IMG/VR virus record: IMGVR_UViG_3300042934_000565
Location: 1 to 64,000 of that record
Reading direction: 5' to 3' (one strand)
Length of the DNA stretch: 64,000 bases
DNA from: a virus
The position numbers were made by a program, and so were the translations under genes. The notes beneath the pieces were generated by a model. The model did no database searches. It was not told where the DNA came from and saw nothing but the letters and a program-made list of their open reading frames with translations. Positions 19,442-25,638 of the stretch are shown here, in pieces (the stretch's first letter is position 1; each line of letters opens with the position of its first letter).

Positions 19442-21970
19442 CTATGCTGCCTTAGCATACTTGTATGACTGCTCGTATGCGTAGACCTGATCGTGGTAAA
19501 GTTCTACCTTGTCACCCCAGTGCTGACCGACTGAGACATCTGCAACGATCGGGATATCGACCACCGTACCGAATCGCTTGTAAACATGGTGCATATCTTC
19601 CATGCTGTCCTTGATTATCGGCAGCACTCGTGCGACGTAGTCGTCTCGAATCTCGAAGTTGATAGCGTCGTGCACCAAGCCAAGGCAGTGAGCGAACTGA
19701 TCCCACCCGAGCTCACGAAGCTTTCGGTTAATCTCGATCATGGCGATGACTGCCAGGTCACTACCGAAGCCCTGTACCGGAGAGTTGATCGCCTGTCGCT
19801 CGGCTTCAGCGCGTACCCCCTGATCAGGCGAATAGATGTCGGGCAGATGACGAATGCGACCCAGGGGCGATACCACCCGGCCATATTTGTTGACCAGGCG
19901 TCGCTGCTTTGCGTGCCATGCGGGCAACTTGGGGTAGAGGTCGAAGTATGCGATACGGGCTGCCTGAGCTTCCATCTCGGTGAAGATCGAGCCATAGCTA
20001 CTGAAGGCAGTCTCGATGAACTTGCGCCAGCCCATGCCATAGAGGAAGCCGAAGTTAACCGGCTTACCGACTACCTTTCGAATCTCCTTGGTCACCTGAG
20101 ATTCAGGCAGCCCAGTGACTCGAGCGGCAGTCATCAAGTGGATGTCGCCACCAGTAGCATAGATATGCTTCATCGTGGTTTCATCCGCCATGAATGCGGC
20201 GATCCTCAGCTCGATCTGGCTATAGTCAGCCTCCACGAATGTCCAGCCAGGCGGCGCCCCGAATAGACCCCGAATGAATGGATCTCTTGGTACCTGTTGA
20301 AGATTGACACCTCGCATCTTACCCCGAGAACCGGAGATCTTGTCTTCATCCGCTTTGCCAGAACTAAGACGTCCCGTAACGGTTCCTGCGAGTTTGAAGT
20401 TCGTGTGAATTCTATGGTTATCATCGTAGAGCTCCGAGTATGGGTTGAAGAACGAGCTGAGGTGCTTCTGCTTCGTAACTCTATCAAGCATACCCTGGAG
20501 GGCTTCATGCTTATACTCTGACTGAAGATGCTTGATTACATCCTCTGCCATGCTCGGGTCACCAGGCGAGCCATCCTGCTTTACCTTGCCCCGTTCGAGC
20601 ACTGGCATCTCGAGCCATTCGAACAGCATCCATCGTGCGAACTTAGAGGCATTGAAGTTAACGGGTAGCGGCTTGCCCCTGGCATCGGTGGGCCATACAT
20701 CCGCAGGCACCTTGTCAAGCTCGGCGGCAGCATATATGCGGGCCTCGACATCTGCCAGGTTCTGCTCGGCAATCGGCTTGCGTTCCTTCAGTCGCTTGAC
20801 ATCGATCCATGCCCCGCGTATCTCAGAGTCGATCAGGTCACGCTGTGCCGGCATCGTCTCGAACTTGAAAATACGGGCAAGTCGGGGTTCGGCCTTGAAC
20901 TCCTCGACCAACTGTTGCTTCACCCAGTACATGTACCAGGTGTCGAGAACATTGTAGTGAAGAACTTCTTTGATCGGGTAGTTCAGCAGGTTGCCCGTGT
21001 CGATACCCCATGCCTCAACACCGAGGCGCGCCATCGCCTGAGGCTTGAGCCCTTTCTGCACGTTCTCATTGAGCAGGGCGATGGCGAGCATCGTATCGAA
21101 GGATGGATAAAGCTTAATCCCGCACCAGATCAACCACTTGCAATCGAAGGAGGCGTTGTGAGCAACCACCTTACGGATGCGCTTAACATGCCGGCCAATA
21201 AGGTCCAGGATATACTGCCAGCGACTACGCCAAGGGGACTGGGGATGATATAGAGGTACAGCAAAGACAGTGCGACCCATGCTCCCGTCAGGCTTGCGTA
21301 TAACGCAAGTAGCAGCAAGACTAACCATTCTCGCCTCAGGCTCATAGTACTCACCGCCGTTCGTTTCGATGTCGATGTAGATTTCATCCGTCATCTCGAG
21401 GATGCGGAATACTTTCTTCAGTGTTTCCTTGGTATCCGCAATAAGATACTTGGGCTGAGGAAACTTGTTGTCGCGTTCGAGCACGCGGTTAGCGAATAGT
21501 CGGAGATCAGCAATGTATCCGGGGAGCTGCCCAGGGTTGCGATTGATAGCACTGGGAGAGAGGGTAGACATGACGTCAGAACCAAGGGCTTCGAAAAACT
21601 TGCCCCTATACTTGGTGATGCCTGACTTACCCACAACGGCTTGCAGAGCCTCATTTCCCAAACAAAGGATGTGCTTCCGCTTTCGGGTTTGTATCTCCGG
21701 GATGAGATACTTAGCCGCATGTTCCTTGAGCTGCCGTGTAGTAAGTGATGTATCGAACTCCCGGCACTTAATAACGGGGGTAAAGAGGATCTTCGATACG
21801 TCGAGCCCGAGTTCCTTGAGCTGGAGATCGAGAGCATCTTGAAATCGTCCCGAGCTCTTTCTGTTAGTAACAACCACGACTTCAGCATCGAGAGGTCCCA
21901 CTGAGAAGGATGATTGGTCATGGTTGCCACATACCTCGCAGATGTCGGGCAGGGTTGAAAGCTCAAGCAC
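19442..21970 (-). CDS. polA: Family A DNA polymerase with UDG-like N-terminus, 842 aa
   Basis: The GTG at 21970 is chosen because a strong promoter ends exactly 6 nt upstream (leaderless). Residues 1-165 resemble family-4 uracil-DNA glycosylase (CEVC, VIKC, HILCLGNEALQAV, TLSPSAINRNPG), but the catalytic GExPG motif and one of the four cluster cysteines are missing. Residues about 195-370 are a DEDDy 3'-5' exonuclease (YIDIETNGG, VVAHNASFD, YNVLDTWYMY). The C-terminal half has pol A motifs VEADYSQIELR, KPVNFGFLYGMG and LVHDAINFE. Replicative polymerase of the phage; a UDG-like domain is also found in SPO1-type polymerases. Confidence 0.9.
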   Translation of the reverse strand: MLELSTLPDICEVCGNHDQSSFSVGPLDAEVVVVTNRKSSGRFQDALDLQLKELGLDVSKILFTPVIKCREFDTSLTTRQLKEHAAKYLIPEIQTRKRKHILCLGNEALQAVVGKSGITKYRGKFFEALGSDVMSTLSPSAINRNPGQLPGYIADLRLFANRVLERDNKFPQPKYLIADTKETLKKVFRILEMTDEIYIDIETNGGEYYEPEARMVSLAATCVIRKPDGSMGRTVFAVPLYHPQSPWRSRWQYILDLIGRHVKRIRKVVAHNASFDCKWLIWCGIKLYPSFDTMLAIALLNENVQKGLKPQAMARLGVEAWGIDTGNLLNYPIKEVLHYNVLDTWYMYWVKQQLVEEFKAEPRLARIFKFETMPAQRDLIDSEIRGAWIDVKRLKERKPIAEQNLADVEARIYAAAELDKVPADVWPTDARGKPLPVNFNASKFARWMLFEWLEMPVLERGKVKQDGSPGDPSMAEDVIKHLQSEYKHEALQGMLDRVTKQKHLSSFFNPYSELYDDNHRIHTNFKLAGTVTGRLSSGKADEDKISGSRGKMRGVNLQQVPRDPFIRGLFGAPPGWTFVEADYSQIELRIAAFMADETTMKHIYATGGDIHLMTAARVTGLPESQVTKEIRKVVGKPVNFGFLYGMGWRKFIETAFSSYGSIFTEMEAQAARIAYFDLYPKLPAWHAKQRRLVNKYGRVVSPLGRIRHLPDIYSPDQGVRAEAERQAINSPVQGFGSDLAVIAMIEINRKLRELGWDQFAHCLGLVHDAINFEIRDDYVARVLPIIKDSMEDMHHVYKRFGTVVDIPIVADVSVGQHWGDKVELYHDQVYAYEQSYKYAKAA

Positions 21971-21976
21971 GATTGT

Positions 21977-22006
21977 ATTATACCACCTTCGAACTCGAGA
22001 GGTCAA
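21977..22006 (-). promoter_or_regulatory. Leaderless-type promoter of the polymerase gene
   Basis: TTGACC (22006-22001), 18 nt, TATAAT (21982-21977, consensus -10), then 6 nt to the GTG. It sits inside the end of the deaminase gene. Confidence 0.75.
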
Positions 22007-22406
22007 TTACCTCAATCCCCTGTGCGCGGAGTAATTCCACACCAGCGGTCAGGCGGTAGGGTACCTTAAATCGTAGAGATCCGATACCCACGTTAAGCAA
22101 CGAGCGTGCACAGTCAAGGCAGGGCGCATGGGTGCAGTAGGCATCACTGTCACCAAGCCTGATACCTTCTCGGGCTGCGTAGGCGATGGCGTTTCGCTCG
22201 GCGTGTTCGACGATCTTACATCCCTCTGTTTCGTCGGGGAGGTGTACGCAATGGGCCATACCACGAGGAGCACCATTATAGCCAGTAGCGAGGATACGAC
22301 CATCGCGAGCAAAGACCACCCCCACCTGGGCACGCGAGCAAGTGCCGCGACGGGCGACAACCTCAGCGACCTCCATGAGCATCTGTTCACGGCTGATCCT
22401 TTCCAT
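21978..22406 (-). CDS. dCMP deaminase, 142 aa
   Basis: The ATG at 22406 overlaps the upstream stop (TGATG). Zinc-dependent deaminase motifs: VEHAERNAI (H-A-E, catalytic Glu) and APCLDCARSLL (P-C-x2-C). GVVFARDGRILATGYNG is the usual strand-loop of dCMP deaminases. It makes dUMP from dCMP for thymidylate-type synthesis. Neighbours encode TS-fold enzymes, dUTPase and a dNMP kinase. Confidence 0.9.
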   Translation of the reverse strand: MERISREQMLMEVAEVVARRGTCSRAQVGVVFARDGRILATGYNGAPRGMAHCVHLPDETEGCKIVEHAERNAIAYAAREGIRLGDSDAYCTHAPCLDCARSLLNVGIGSLRFKVPYRLTAGVELLRAQGIEVIDLSSSKVV

Positions 22407-22528
22407 CACTTGGCCCAGGTCTTTCCGCAGCTGCACCTATACAGCTCGCCTCGAGCGGACATATCGAACATCGGAACAGAGACCCTCGTCATCGTAACGA
22501 AGTGCCGCCACTTGTGCCACCAAAGCAT
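22406..22528 (-). CDS. Microprotein with C-x-C motif, 40 aa
   Basis: ATG at 22528 lies one base after the stop of the TS-fold gene and its own stop overlaps the deaminase start. Basic N-terminus (MLWWHKWRHFV) and an LYRCSCGKTW end like half a zinc ribbon. Small size and good coupling suggest it is translated; function unknown. Confidence 0.5.
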   Translation of the reverse strand: MLWWHKWRHFVTMTRVSVPMFDMSARGELYRCSCGKTWAK

Positions 22529-22529
22529 A

Positions 22530-23405
22530 TCAGTACCAAAGCTTTCCCTGGGAGTTCCAGTATTTGATCATCTCGACGTCCTGGTCGAAGATGTGCATGT
22601 TTGCGGTGTGGAAGATCAGTTTGCCGACCTCGAGCGGATACTGCTGAGGCTCGTTGTACTTGTATTCCCAGAGTCGATTGACTTCCCCTACTACCCACTG
22701 GGCAAGTCGAACGGCGAGGTAGACATCGTCCTGAAAGTGTCTGAGAAGATCGGTCGAGCGCATGAAGTAGCTGATGTCGAGCACACCATCGCGGATGATG
22801 AAGTGATACCCGAGGGTGCAAGGGACCCGCTTGCCGTGGACTGCTCCGGTATCCTCCGGGAACCAGATGGGGAGGTATGCCTGCCGAGTCAGCGGTGACT
22901 TGAACAGTTGGTTCACAACATCGCGCAGATCGCCATAGTCGAAACGGATACCCCGCATCTCACCATTTGTGAAAAGGGATCGATTGTATCCCTGGATTTG
23001 GCCCGCATTCTTCGGCCACATGCGTTCGGGGTAGGTGTGACTGAATGCCTCACCCTCACTCTTGTGAGCGACGTTCGTGCCCTCTTTCTTGGCGGCGAAC
23101 GGCCACCAGGCCTCGCTCGGGCTCGGATTGAGGGGCTCGCCACCTACGCGCTCAAGGAAATGATCCTCGGCCCAAGGCAAACGAGCCCCCGTCTCACGAG
23201 CCAGTTCTTCCTTCGTCTGCGGCATCTGCCACTGGAAGACGACATGAAGCAACTCTCGCATCTTGGCATCTGTTGATTGACTTTGCCACTCCCCCAAGTC
23301 CACCGCTGGCTGCTCCAATAATTTCCGCTCCAACATTTCGAATAGTACCCGAAAGGTGAGGGGCAGGTTCGTGTTGAGATTGTCGAACTGCGAAGCGATG
23401 ATCAT
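22530..23405 (-). CDS. Thymidylate synthase-fold enzyme, probable pyrimidine hydroxymethylase, 291 aa
   Basis: TS-family signatures: VPCTLGYHF (catalytic Cys), ISYFMRSTDLLRHFQDDVY (phosphate-binding R-S and the base-reading region), and HTANMHIFDQD (the H-x-Y-like end). Where TS has Asn eleven residues after the Arg (GLPFN), this protein has Asp, as in dCMP hydroxymethylase of T4. It may therefore act on dCMP, or on dUMP with altered reaction. ATG preceded by AAGGGA. A second TS-fold gene lies directly upstream. Confidence 0.8.
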   Translation of the reverse strand: MIIASQFDNLNTNLPLTFRVLFEMLERKLLEQPAVDLGEWQSQSTDAKMRELLHVVFQWQMPQTKEELARETGARLPWAEDHFLERVGGEPLNPSPSEAWWPFAAKKEGTNVAHKSEGEAFSHTYPERMWPKNAGQIQGYNRSLFTNGEMRGIRFDYGDLRDVVNQLFKSPLTRQAYLPIWFPEDTGAVHGKRVPCTLGYHFIIRDGVLDISYFMRSTDLLRHFQDDVYLAVRLAQWVVGEVNRLWEYKYNEPQQYPLEVGKLIFHTANMHIFDQDVEMIKYWNSQGKLWY

Positions 23406-23477
23406 GGAAGTAGTCCCTTAGGTCTCTGAGTCGTCTCTAATGATGCCGAGATATCGTCATGCGGTAGTTAGATCATA

Positions 23478-24509
23478 TCACTCATCGTCATCCTCGTCAT
23501 CGTCGCCCCCTCCGACGAATGGATCTCCATACCTACGGTTGATCGGCATCCCGATTCGTTCGAAGTCCAGCTCATCGACATGCACCGAGGGCAGCGGCTT
23601 GTATGCGGTGAAGAACTCCTTCTCCTCACCCTTGAGTGGGCCGCGCTTGTAGTACTCCCAACCTTCGAACTGCTGAGCGTACTCGTAGCCATGCACCTCG
23701 GTATGGTACCGGCGAATGACTCGGCGGAAGGTGTTATAGGTCAGCGCCCCGTAAGTGCGACCTGCCTCATCTTCAGCGACCACCTTCTGGAACCACTTCC
23801 TCGATCCTCGGATCGCCGGGTGGTCGATGATCAAACGCTTATGTTCTCTATCCAGCTCAGACGAGGGAGCCAGGATGAGTTTACGGAACAGCTGCGACCG
23901 CTCATCGTCAGGGCTGGTAAGCACATAGCTCACCGACTTGAAGAAGTGCCACTGCGTTGCCTCGTTGATCCAGACGAAGCGCAGCTTCTTCACATCGATC
24001 CCGAGTTCCTGAGCCAGGTACTTGCCGATCACATATGCGACCGAAAGGTCGAGCCCCGCGATGTACCCCATGTAAGAGGTGCGGCTGTGCAGAGTCAGCG
24101 TCGGGTAGGGCTTGGCCTTGTAGCTGAAGCTCAGCATGCACGCGCCCCAGATACGAGTCTGCTTGTTCTGATGCCCGGTTGCCTCACCACCGCGAGGCTT
24201 GACGGTCTTGGTACGCATGACTGCGATGCCGCGTTCCTTCAGACCGATACGTGAGGTGATCCGACCGATCCAGGTCTCGAGGTCCTGCGGATCGATGTAC
24301 TGACGAATGAGCATCGACCATCGCTGCTTGGTCAGCCACGAAGTCTTGAGGTCGAAGTCCCACTCCATCGAGTCGCACTCGGCGATCACCATGTGCTCGG
24401 ATACATCCACCGAACTGATGAGGTCGAGGCTATCGGGAGTACCGAAGAGCAGTCCATCCACGAGAGCATCGTGAAGCTGCGTCATGGTGTGGGTGTGGTA
24501 ATGCTTCAT
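23478..24509 (-). CDS. Second, divergent thymidylate synthase-fold protein, 343 aa
   Basis: The segment RIWGACMLSFSY (candidate catalytic Cys), then LTLHSRTSYMGYIAGLDLSV, then YLAQELGIDVKKLRFVW aligns by eye with the TS region LYQRSCD...GLPFN...MAQQ...FVW. Asp replaces Asn at the same position as in the 22530 product. N- and C-terminal parts are unlike TS; the last 15 residues are Gly/Asp-rich. ATGA overlap with the dUTPase gene. Could be the substrate-specific partner in a base-modification pathway. Confidence 0.65.
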   Translation of the reverse strand: MKHYHTHTMTQLHDALVDGLLFGTPDSLDLISSVDVSEHMVIAECDSMEWDFDLKTSWLTKQRWSMLIRQYIDPQDLETWIGRITSRIGLKERGIAVMRTKTVKPRGGEATGHQNKQTRIWGACMLSFSYKAKPYPTLTLHSRTSYMGYIAGLDLSVAYVIGKYLAQELGIDVKKLRFVWINEATQWHFFKSVSYVLTSPDDERSQLFRKLILAPSSELDREHKRLIIDHPAIRGSRKWFQKVVAEDEAGRTYGALTYNTFRRVIRRYHTEVHGYEYAQQFEGWEYYKRGPLKGEEKEFFTAYKPLPSVHVDELDFERIGMPINRRYGDPFVGGGDDDEDDDE

Positions 24510-25099
24510 GCCTGCACCGCCTTGTAGAGACCGTCGGTCACTGAGCAGTGGAAGAACCGAGTACCCTCGGCTGACATGGGGTACGAGCGAAGCAGATTCT
24601 CGTGCTCCTCACCCTCGTACATGTAGCAGAAGACAGCGGCATCGTCGAGGGCCCGCTTACAGCCAGGGCACTTGGTGCTGACCCCGTCGTAACCCTCCTC
24701 CTGTCGCTTCTCGTTCTTCTTGTGCTTGTTGTCGTAGGCGAGCTTGACCGATTCTGCATCCATGCCCAGCCCCAGGAAGATGTTGAGCAGGAAGTGCAGA
24801 GCATCGATGGCCTCACCCTGTGCGGCCTCGAGATTGATGTGCCGGGACTTGGCCCAGGGCTTCCACCCGATTTCGCCCAGCAGCTCATGCAGCTCGTCGG
24901 TCAGGGCGGTGACGTTCCAGTGAAGGAAATCGATCAGCGGCTTGCGATCTTCATCGGTGTTCTCGTAGTTGCCCTCCTCATCAAGAAGCGCGAACTCGGG
25001 AGAGTCGAAGGCGTTGAGGAAGAGATTAATCGGGTGCGGCGATGGCATCTTCCCCTGAAGCTCGCTCTGCTGATCGAGGAAGTACTGGAGGGTGGTCAT
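24506..25099 (-). CDS. Dimeric (all-alpha) dUTPase/dCTPase-like enzyme, 197 aa
   Basis: The core LTDELHELLGEIGWKPWAKS, EAIDALHFLLNIFLGLG and NKHKKNEKRQEEGYDG has the E-x2-E and E-x2-D metal-binding pairs of the all-alpha NTP pyrophosphatases. That superfamily includes dimeric dUTPases and T4 dCTPase-dUTPase. Extra C-terminal cysteines (CPGCKRALDD...FHC) could form a zinc site. It removes dUTP and perhaps dCTP. Overlaps both neighbours by 4 nt. Confidence 0.85.
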   Translation of the reverse strand: MTTLQYFLDQQSELQGKMPSPHPINLFLNAFDSPEFALLDEEGNYENTDEDRKPLIDFLHWNVTALTDELHELLGEIGWKPWAKSRHINLEAAQGEAIDALHFLLNIFLGLGMDAESVKLAYDNKHKKNEKRQEEGYDGVSTKCPGCKRALDDAAVFCYMYEGEEHENLLRSYPMSAEGTRFFHCSVTDGLYKAVQA

Positions 25100-25638
25100 A
25101 GGAAAGCCCTTTCCTGAGCTCGGTTGAGTGGGAGGTAAAGAGGACCGAGAGGGTCTCGATCGCTCCAGACAGTGTAGTCATAGACGACAGCGCCGGCATG
25201 AATCACGTCGAGGGAGGCCCGCTGAAGGTATGCCGTGTACAGCTGTTCGACATGATCCCACACCGCGCGATTCGTTTCGTCGCCCGCGATGTTCATCTTC
25301 ACTACGCTGAGCGGTGGCAGGCAGTAGATGATGATCGGCTTTAGCTGGTAGAATCGACGAAGCGAACCATGTACCCAAGCTGGAGAAGTGAAGCCCGCTC
25401 GTTGCTCCTTGCGGAGTACGGGGCCGTAGATGAACTCGCTGATGAGTCGGTATCGATCAAAGAGGGTGTACTGGAATCCCTCAGCAAGATTCTGATCGAC
25501 CCACTGCTGAAGATCGACCAGGTCGTTCGTCTCTTTGCTCACCACTCGAGGAGCGACCGTCAGATCGGGGTAAGCGTCGAGGATGTTCTTGATCAGGGTT
25601 GTCTTGCCCGAGCCGTCAGGGCCTTCGACGATGATCAT
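25096..25638 (-). CDS. Deoxynucleoside monophosphate kinase (TMK-like), 180 aa
   Basis: P-loop GPDGSGKTT at residues 6-14, and the D-R-Y-x3-S motif (FDRYRLISEFIYG) of thymidylate kinase-type enzymes near residue 60. YCLPPLSVV fits the lid-side strand. In phages with modified bases such a kinase charges the modified dNMP as well as dTMP. Coupled by ATGA overlaps. Confidence 0.8.
   Translation of the reverse strand: MIIVEGPDGSGKTTLIKNILDAYPDLTVAPRVVSKETNDLVDLQQWVDQNLAEGFQYTLFDRYRLISEFIYGPVLRKEQRAGFTSPAWVHGSLRRFYQLKPIIIYCLPPLSVVKMNIAGDETNRAVWDHVEQLYTAYLQRASLDVIHAGAVVYDYTVWSDRDPLGPLYLPLNRAQERAFL

Follow-up and report, generated by a model that had tools for sequence, protein, structure and literature searches.

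The closest described systems to the locus treated here are built around enzymes of the thymidylate synthase (TS) superfamily. Phage T4 combines the deoxycytidine monophosphate (dCMP) hydroxymethylase gp42 with the gp56 dCTPase, the gp1 kinase and the Cd deaminase, whereas SPO1 encodes gp29, a deoxyuridine monophosphate (dUMP) hydroxymethylase. RB69 has a 5-hydroxy-dCMP synthase (PMC13390438) of the same type as the dCMP hydroxylase AfhB of phage HY126, MilA is a CMP hydroxymethylase of antibiotic synthesis and thus a ribonucleotide enzyme, and Pamexvirus comprises relatives of the 5-methylcytosine phage Xp12. TS converts methylene-tetrahydrofolate (THF) to dihydrofolate, and the hydroxymethylases release THF and need no dihydrofolate reductase (DHFR) (PMC5175136, PMC6400193). 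We analyzed a stretch of 64,000 nucleotides (the window) from the 65,027-base record IMGVR_UViG_3300042934_000565 of a bacterial virus in IMG/VR. It carries on the minus strand, at 19442-25638, six open reading frames (ORFs) for a kinase, a pyrophosphohydrolase, a TS-fold protein hereafter called the companion, a TS homologue, a dCMP deaminase and a family A DNA polymerase (PolA). Judging from sequences and structure models, this block likely encodes a pathway that works on nucleotides and supplies the phage DNA with a cytosine modified at C5.

The target base is indicated by the active site of the TS homologue, which we aligned with 79 usable viral relatives and with E. coli TS, T4 gp42, SPO1 gp29, the TS of AXL3 and Huwbert gp68. 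All 79 relatives carry Asp at the position of E. coli N177 and every one has Thr or Ser at that of H147; C146, Y94, R126, R166, D169 and H207 (E. coli numbering) are kept, the Cys and Asp169 in 79 of 79. At positions 177 and 147 T4 gp42 has Asp and Thr, SPO1 gp29, which reads uracil, has Asn and Asn, and canonical TS has Asn and His; Huwbert gp68 shares Asn177 with E. coli TS and SPO1 gp29. An exchange of Asn for Asp at position 177 shifts TS from dUMP to dCMP, and in the MetaGPA study positions 177 and 147 best separated the TS of contigs with experimentally modified cytosine, in which domains of TS, dCMP deaminase and the all-alpha phosphoribosyl-ATP-pyrophosphohydrolase co-occur (PMC8670742). 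With this precedent, Asp177 in the TS homologue and the equivalent Asp in 66 of 66 companion sequences argue for cytosine and not uracil as the target. Neither the Asn177 and His147 of a thymidylate synthase nor the Asn177 of an SPO1-type dUMP hydroxymethylase was found among the 79 relatives, and the TS homologue probably acts, by its residues, on the same substrate as T4 dCMP hydroxymethylase. The predicted fold is in line with this assignment: the AlphaFold2 model (pLDDT 82.5) matched MilA (2e-12), AfhB (1e-11) and T4 dCMP hydroxymethylase (7e-10) in a Foldseek search of the PDB, with the entries 9iqu (AfhB) and 9iqc at ranks 2-3, and MilA was also the best match of the family profile in a PDB sequence search (5e-8). 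The initial annotation of this DNA had proposed hydroxymethylated cytosine or uracil by comparison with T4 and SPO1. Its cytosine part is supported, its uracil part fails together with the likeness to SPO1, which breaks at position 177, and its hydroxymethyl part is weakened by two residues discussed below.

With regard to the product, the C-terminal tail of TS is missing from the cassette-type enzymes, as the hydroxymethylase class requires: 8-32 residues follow the H212 column in nine cassette sequences, compared with 52 in E. coli, 58 in Pamexvirus and 25 in T4 gp42. Furthermore, none of 43 cassette genomes encodes DHFR, so that the combination expected of an Xp12-type dCMP methylase, a TS-like tail and a genomic DHFR, was found neither in the nine sequences nor in the 43 genomes. 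The lack of both favors hydroxymethylation, or some other outcome for the methylene intermediate, over a 5-methyl product. The folate-binding Asp169, which is Asn in the RB69 5-hydroxy-dCMP synthase, is retained in 79 of 79 relatives, and the Asn expected at this position of an RB69/AfhB-type enzyme was therefore absent from the family.

The companion belongs to phrog_13667, a family to which no function has been assigned so far. It gave no match in Pfam or PDB sequence searches, either as a single sequence or as a profile, and profile comparison with TS by hhalign yielded probabilities <1%; a single-sequence match to Sfp (E 0.66) was dismissed as chance. The AlphaFold2 model built from 60 sequences (mean pLDDT 92.8) nevertheless has the TS fold, in agreement with the initial annotation, which had counted two TS-fold proteins in the block. 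Its top Foldseek matches in the PDB were 9iqu (5e-7; TM scores 0.38/0.58, a likeness at the level of the fold only), 9iqc (6e-6) and MilA (5jnh, 5e-5), followed by TS; the 9iqc entry carries FAD, and flavin use is stated for this entry only. Among viral models the companion matched T4-like gp42/dCMP hydroxymethylases, TS proteins and the companion of Pseudomonas phage PMBT14, and the extra C-terminal helices of MilA recall those of the companion. Tyr71, Cys124, Arg143 and Asp154 are invariant in 66 sequences and spaced by 53, 19 and 11 residues, compared with 52, 20 and 11 for Y94-C146-R166-N177 of E. coli TS, whereas the folate Asp position is taken by Tyr146. As Cys, Arg and Asp are invariant even in divergent relatives, catalysis is suggested, and the companion probably has an active TS fold that reads cytosine and does not hold folate in the manner of TS.

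The remaining genes of the block (Table 1) fit a nucleotide pathway. T4 gp56 falls into the families of the pyrophosphohydrolase (PF08761 2e-5, phrog_173 6e-39, phrog_18650 1e-9), which by sequence places the latter in the gp56-type all-alpha group. The kinase stayed under the Pfam cut-offs and belongs to phrog_761, not to the family of the T4 gp1 dNMP kinase (PF21448/phrog_139); a kinase encoded three genes from the RB69 5-hydroxy-dCMP synthase gene is also a member of phrog_761 (2e-45). PolA carries a uracil-DNA glycosylase (UDG)-like part that is found in phage records mainly in cassette-bearing genera. As proof of hydroxymethyluracil this domain was rejected: it accompanies the cassette as an association only, and the two motifs of the UDG active site are not kept in it. 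Three of the five ORF junctions overlap with the listed starts (kinase/pyrophosphohydrolase and pyrophosphohydrolase/companion by 4 bp each, deaminase/PolA by 29 bp) and the other two leave gaps of 72 and 93 bp. All six ORFs claimed initially are thus present, with families backed by Pfam, PHROGs and, for the companion, the predicted fold.

Table 1. Genes and key residues of the block, with positions in the window.
Feature	Position	Strand	Support
P-loop (d)NMP kinase, proposed substrate modified dCMP	25096..25638	-	phrog_761 1e-15
All-alpha dCTPase/dUTPase-like pyrophosphohydrolase, proposed dCTP (and dUTP) clearance	24506..25099	-	PF08761 5e-12, phrog_18650 2e-62, phrog_173 2e-13
TS-fold companion	23478..24509	-	phrog_13667 ("unknown function"); AlphaFold2 and Foldseek
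Cys124 of the companion, in the place of the TS nucleophile (E. coli C146)	24138..24140	-	66/66
Asp154 of the companion, in the place of the base-reading residue (E. coli N177)	24048..24050	-	66/66; Arg-Asp spacing 11
TS homologue, putative cytosine-type active site	22530..23405	-	PF00303 3e-6, phrog_160 1e-32; AlphaFold2 and Foldseek
TS homologue Cys196 (E. coli C146), predicted nucleophile	22818..22820	-	79/79 relatives
TS homologue Asp227 (E. coli N177, T4 gp42 D179), predicted cytosine-reading residue	22725..22727	-	79/79 relatives
TS homologue Arg193, three before Cys (catalytic Asp145 in T4 dCMP hydroxymethylase)	22827..22829	-	family alignments
dCMP deaminase	21978..22436	-	PF00383 2e-19, phrog_174 5e-45; HAE and PCxxC zinc motifs intact in the translation
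Family A DNA polymerase with 3'-5' exonuclease and N-terminal UDG-like domain	19442..22006	-	PF00476 5e-70, PF01612 1e-10, PF03167 2e-9

A comparison with T4 shows what is shared: Asp177, Thr147, the catalytic Cys, the folate Asp169, Tyr94 and the lack of a long tail in the TS-type enzyme, together with a pyrophosphohydrolase of the gp56 families and a dCMP deaminase. The initial proposal of a nucleotide-level route to a modified pyrimidine, with components like those of T4, is supported. In contrast to T4, the genes stand here in one tight cluster with a kinase of another family, a second TS-fold protein and PolA in place of PolB, and a glucosyltransferase is missing. Glycosyltransferases (PF00534, PF00535) and carbamoyltransferases (PF02543) gave no match in the record of the window, as had been noted initially for glucosyl- and other transferases, and in 36 further non-structural ORFs of the window Pfam recognized replication, resolvase and regulatory domains only. 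In 30 genomes PF00534 had no match above the cut-off and PF02543 none. Family 2 glycosyltransferases (PF00535) were seen in two longer cassette records only (G024:C1:5569-7098, 78 kb; G040:C1:41790-42742, 82 kb), and these are possible candidates for decorating enzymes.

The block is conserved well beyond this virus. In IMG/VR the companion is encoded by 65 viral loci, and at least 447 stretches encode the TS homologue. The order kinase, pyrophosphohydrolase, companion, TS homologue, deaminase and polymerase is kept on one strand in 58 of the 65 companion loci, which exceeds chance; in the remaining seven, one to three of the genes are absent from the stretch retrieved, and no rearrangement is seen. 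The companion adjoins the TS homologue in every locus except one contig-limited stretch. At the DNA level the Microbacterium phages Huwbert and Triscuit and the Curtobacterium phage Shrew cover 75-82% of the region at 69-73% identity. Using tblastn, the companion was detected in 85 public phage records, throughout with actinobacterial hosts (Gordonia, Mycobacterium, Streptomyces, Microbacterium and Curtobacterium) and including phage Muddy, and the TS homologue in 213. Equal gene order with a hypothetical protein at the place of the companion occurs in Pseudomonas phage PMBT14, Serratia phage Opt-155 and Brevundimonas phage Strzyga, the last of which has no deaminase annotated in the block, and the companions of this group and of the actinobacterial phages match by profile (E ~1e-4, probability 54-59%). 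The TS homologue stands alone in 21 of 80 TS loci, and a companion match was absent from 15 whole records with TS alone or a similar arrangement, an empty answer that is weak evidence.

Among 84,980 bacterial and archaeal genomes (one per species) the TS homologue was present in five contigs of metagenome-assembled genomes only (L169-L173), which are probably binned phage DNA. Large-genome phages (L129, L132, L135, L148 and others, with contigs of up to 434 kb) carry a cassette-type TS alone, with none of the other five genes in its vicinity and no match to the companion. In 194 Microbacterium phage records a TS similar to T4 gp42 (27-29% identity in those listed) forms a separate candidate group for modified cytosine. 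In several Gordonia phages a lysin B gene lies within the nucleotide block, as with Emalyn gene 44 (L005:6626-7465) in the interval between TS and dCMP deaminase, and the Manatee Spring contig ctuI7215 (L014:7758-10052) combines a cassette-type TS annotated as "pyrimidine hmase" with ThyX in the same block.

Several observations weigh against a modified cytosine made in this way. The signature of T4 dCMP hydroxymethylase comprises an acid three residues before the Cys, where Asp145 activates water, and Ser or Thr two before Tyr96 (PMC6400193). At the first position T4 and SPO1 have Asp, RB69 has Glu, E. coli Leu and Pamexvirus Asn, while the TS homologue has Arg193, which is near-invariant to invariant across the family alignments; at the second position, Ser in T4, His123 was found in 43 of 43 sequences. 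As this published signature fails, we did not class the TS homologue with the T4-type dCMP hydroxymethylases. Several folate contacts that are hydrophobic in TS are replaced by polar residues (Arg for L172, His for G173 and mostly His for W83), and the placement of the general-base Glu (E58) is uncertain; because its column is mixed in the alignment of the 79 relatives, it was left out of the argument. The kinship of the companion with TS derives from predicted structure, with modest TM scores, and from residue spacing, not from sequence statistics. No downstream transferase was found in the record of the window, as described above, and the papers searched contain neither restriction nor mass-spectrometry data on any cassette-bearing phage. 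Taken together, hydroxymethyl is the leading guess for the modification of the cytosine, at somewhat less than an even chance.

In Gordonia phage Azira the block was interpreted as serving thymine synthesis, a reading given to four annotated genes (PMC10353413) and matched by the GenBank names. According to this explanation, the deaminase and the dUTPase would supply dUMP from dCMP and dUTP, the TS homologue would convert it to thymidylate (dTMP) and the kinase would make dTDP. The active-site residues Asp177 and Thr/Ser147 argue against it. Moreover, ThyX is encoded alongside in 16 of the 43 cassette genomes, and in Huwbert one of the two adjacent genes 67 and 68 (L002:14511-16156), both annotated as thymidylate synthase, is of the cassette type with Asp177 and its neighbor is canonical with Asn177 and His147, so that the TS homologue does not appear to be the dTMP synthase. 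As the TS tail is also missing and a conserved second TS-fold protein is left unexplained, a boost of the thymidylate supply seems improbable. A role of the TS homologue as dCMP methylase, giving a genome with 5-methylcytosine as in Xp12, is highly improbable. The TS of the Pamexvirus relatives PaMx28 and AAT-1 also has Asp177, with deaminase and pyrophosphohydrolase genes nearby, and the DNA of AXL1 is resistant to enzymes with G/C in their sites (PMC9206674), but the long TS tail and the DHFR gene three genes from TS in Pamexvirus are both absent from the cassette.

There is also a small chance of flavin-dependent hydroxylation, with one or both TS-fold proteins making 5-hydroxy-dCMP as in RB69-type phages. 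AfhB is the closest solved fold to the companion, followed by the FAD-containing 9iqc, both entries rank high for the TS homologue as well, the companion lacks the folate Asp, and the kinase shares its PHROG with the one near the RB69 gene. The TS homologue shares the TS fold, Asp177 and Thr147 with the RB69/AfhB enzymes; it differs from the RB69 enzyme in retaining Asp169 and in having Arg instead of Glu three residues before the Cys, where MilA has Asp. The likeness of the companion to AfhB is limited to the fold, and no arabinose pathway genes were seen here, whereas RB69 has sugar genes nearby. Alternatively, the companion could be without catalysis of its own and only shape the active site of the TS homologue, as its partner in a mixed dimer, which would be compatible with a cytosine pathway for the other genes. 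In T4 dCMP hydroxymethylase the opposite protomer supplies the Arg residues for phosphate binding (PMC6400193), and the two genes adjoin in nearly all loci. We regard an idle partner as rather unlikely in view of the Cys, Arg and Asp kept even in divergent relatives and of the 15 records with a TS homologue and no detected companion.

For the preferred pathway to a modified cytosine we infer the chemistry from gene content, gene order, conservation, residue identities and predicted folds. The pyrophosphohydrolase would convert dCTP (and dUTP) to the monophosphates. The TS homologue would bind dCMP with its base read by Asp227, Cys196 would attack C6, and a one-carbon unit would be added at C5. 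The likely product is 5-hydroxymethyl-dCMP or another adduct of the methylene carbon and not the 5-methyl form, since the tail and the DHFR partner of the methylating enzymes are missing. The companion, reading cytosine without the folate Asp, may act on dCMP or on the product of the TS homologue, or may pair with the latter. The kinase would then raise the modified dCMP to the di- and triphosphate and PolA would incorporate the modified dCTP, while the deaminase would convert some of the dCMP to dUMP, from which ThyX, a canonical TS or the host would make thymidylate. A further possibility, which we consider conceivable but less probable than not, is that the two TS-fold enzymes act in series on dCMP: the TS homologue would provide an exocyclic-methylene or hydroxymethyl intermediate without the water-activating acid of T4, and the companion would complete a cytosine modification that has not been described.

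Similar blocks have been annotated as a source of extra thymine, and a modified cytosine seems more likely here. If the block makes such a base, a different response of the phages to restriction and CRISPR would be expected; many cassette-bearing phages have already been isolated. The family phrog_13667 would become a second TS-fold nucleotide enzyme. Should the two enzymes indeed act in series, a large group of actinobacterial and proteobacterial phages would carry a cytosine base of unknown type, made wholly at the nucleotide level.

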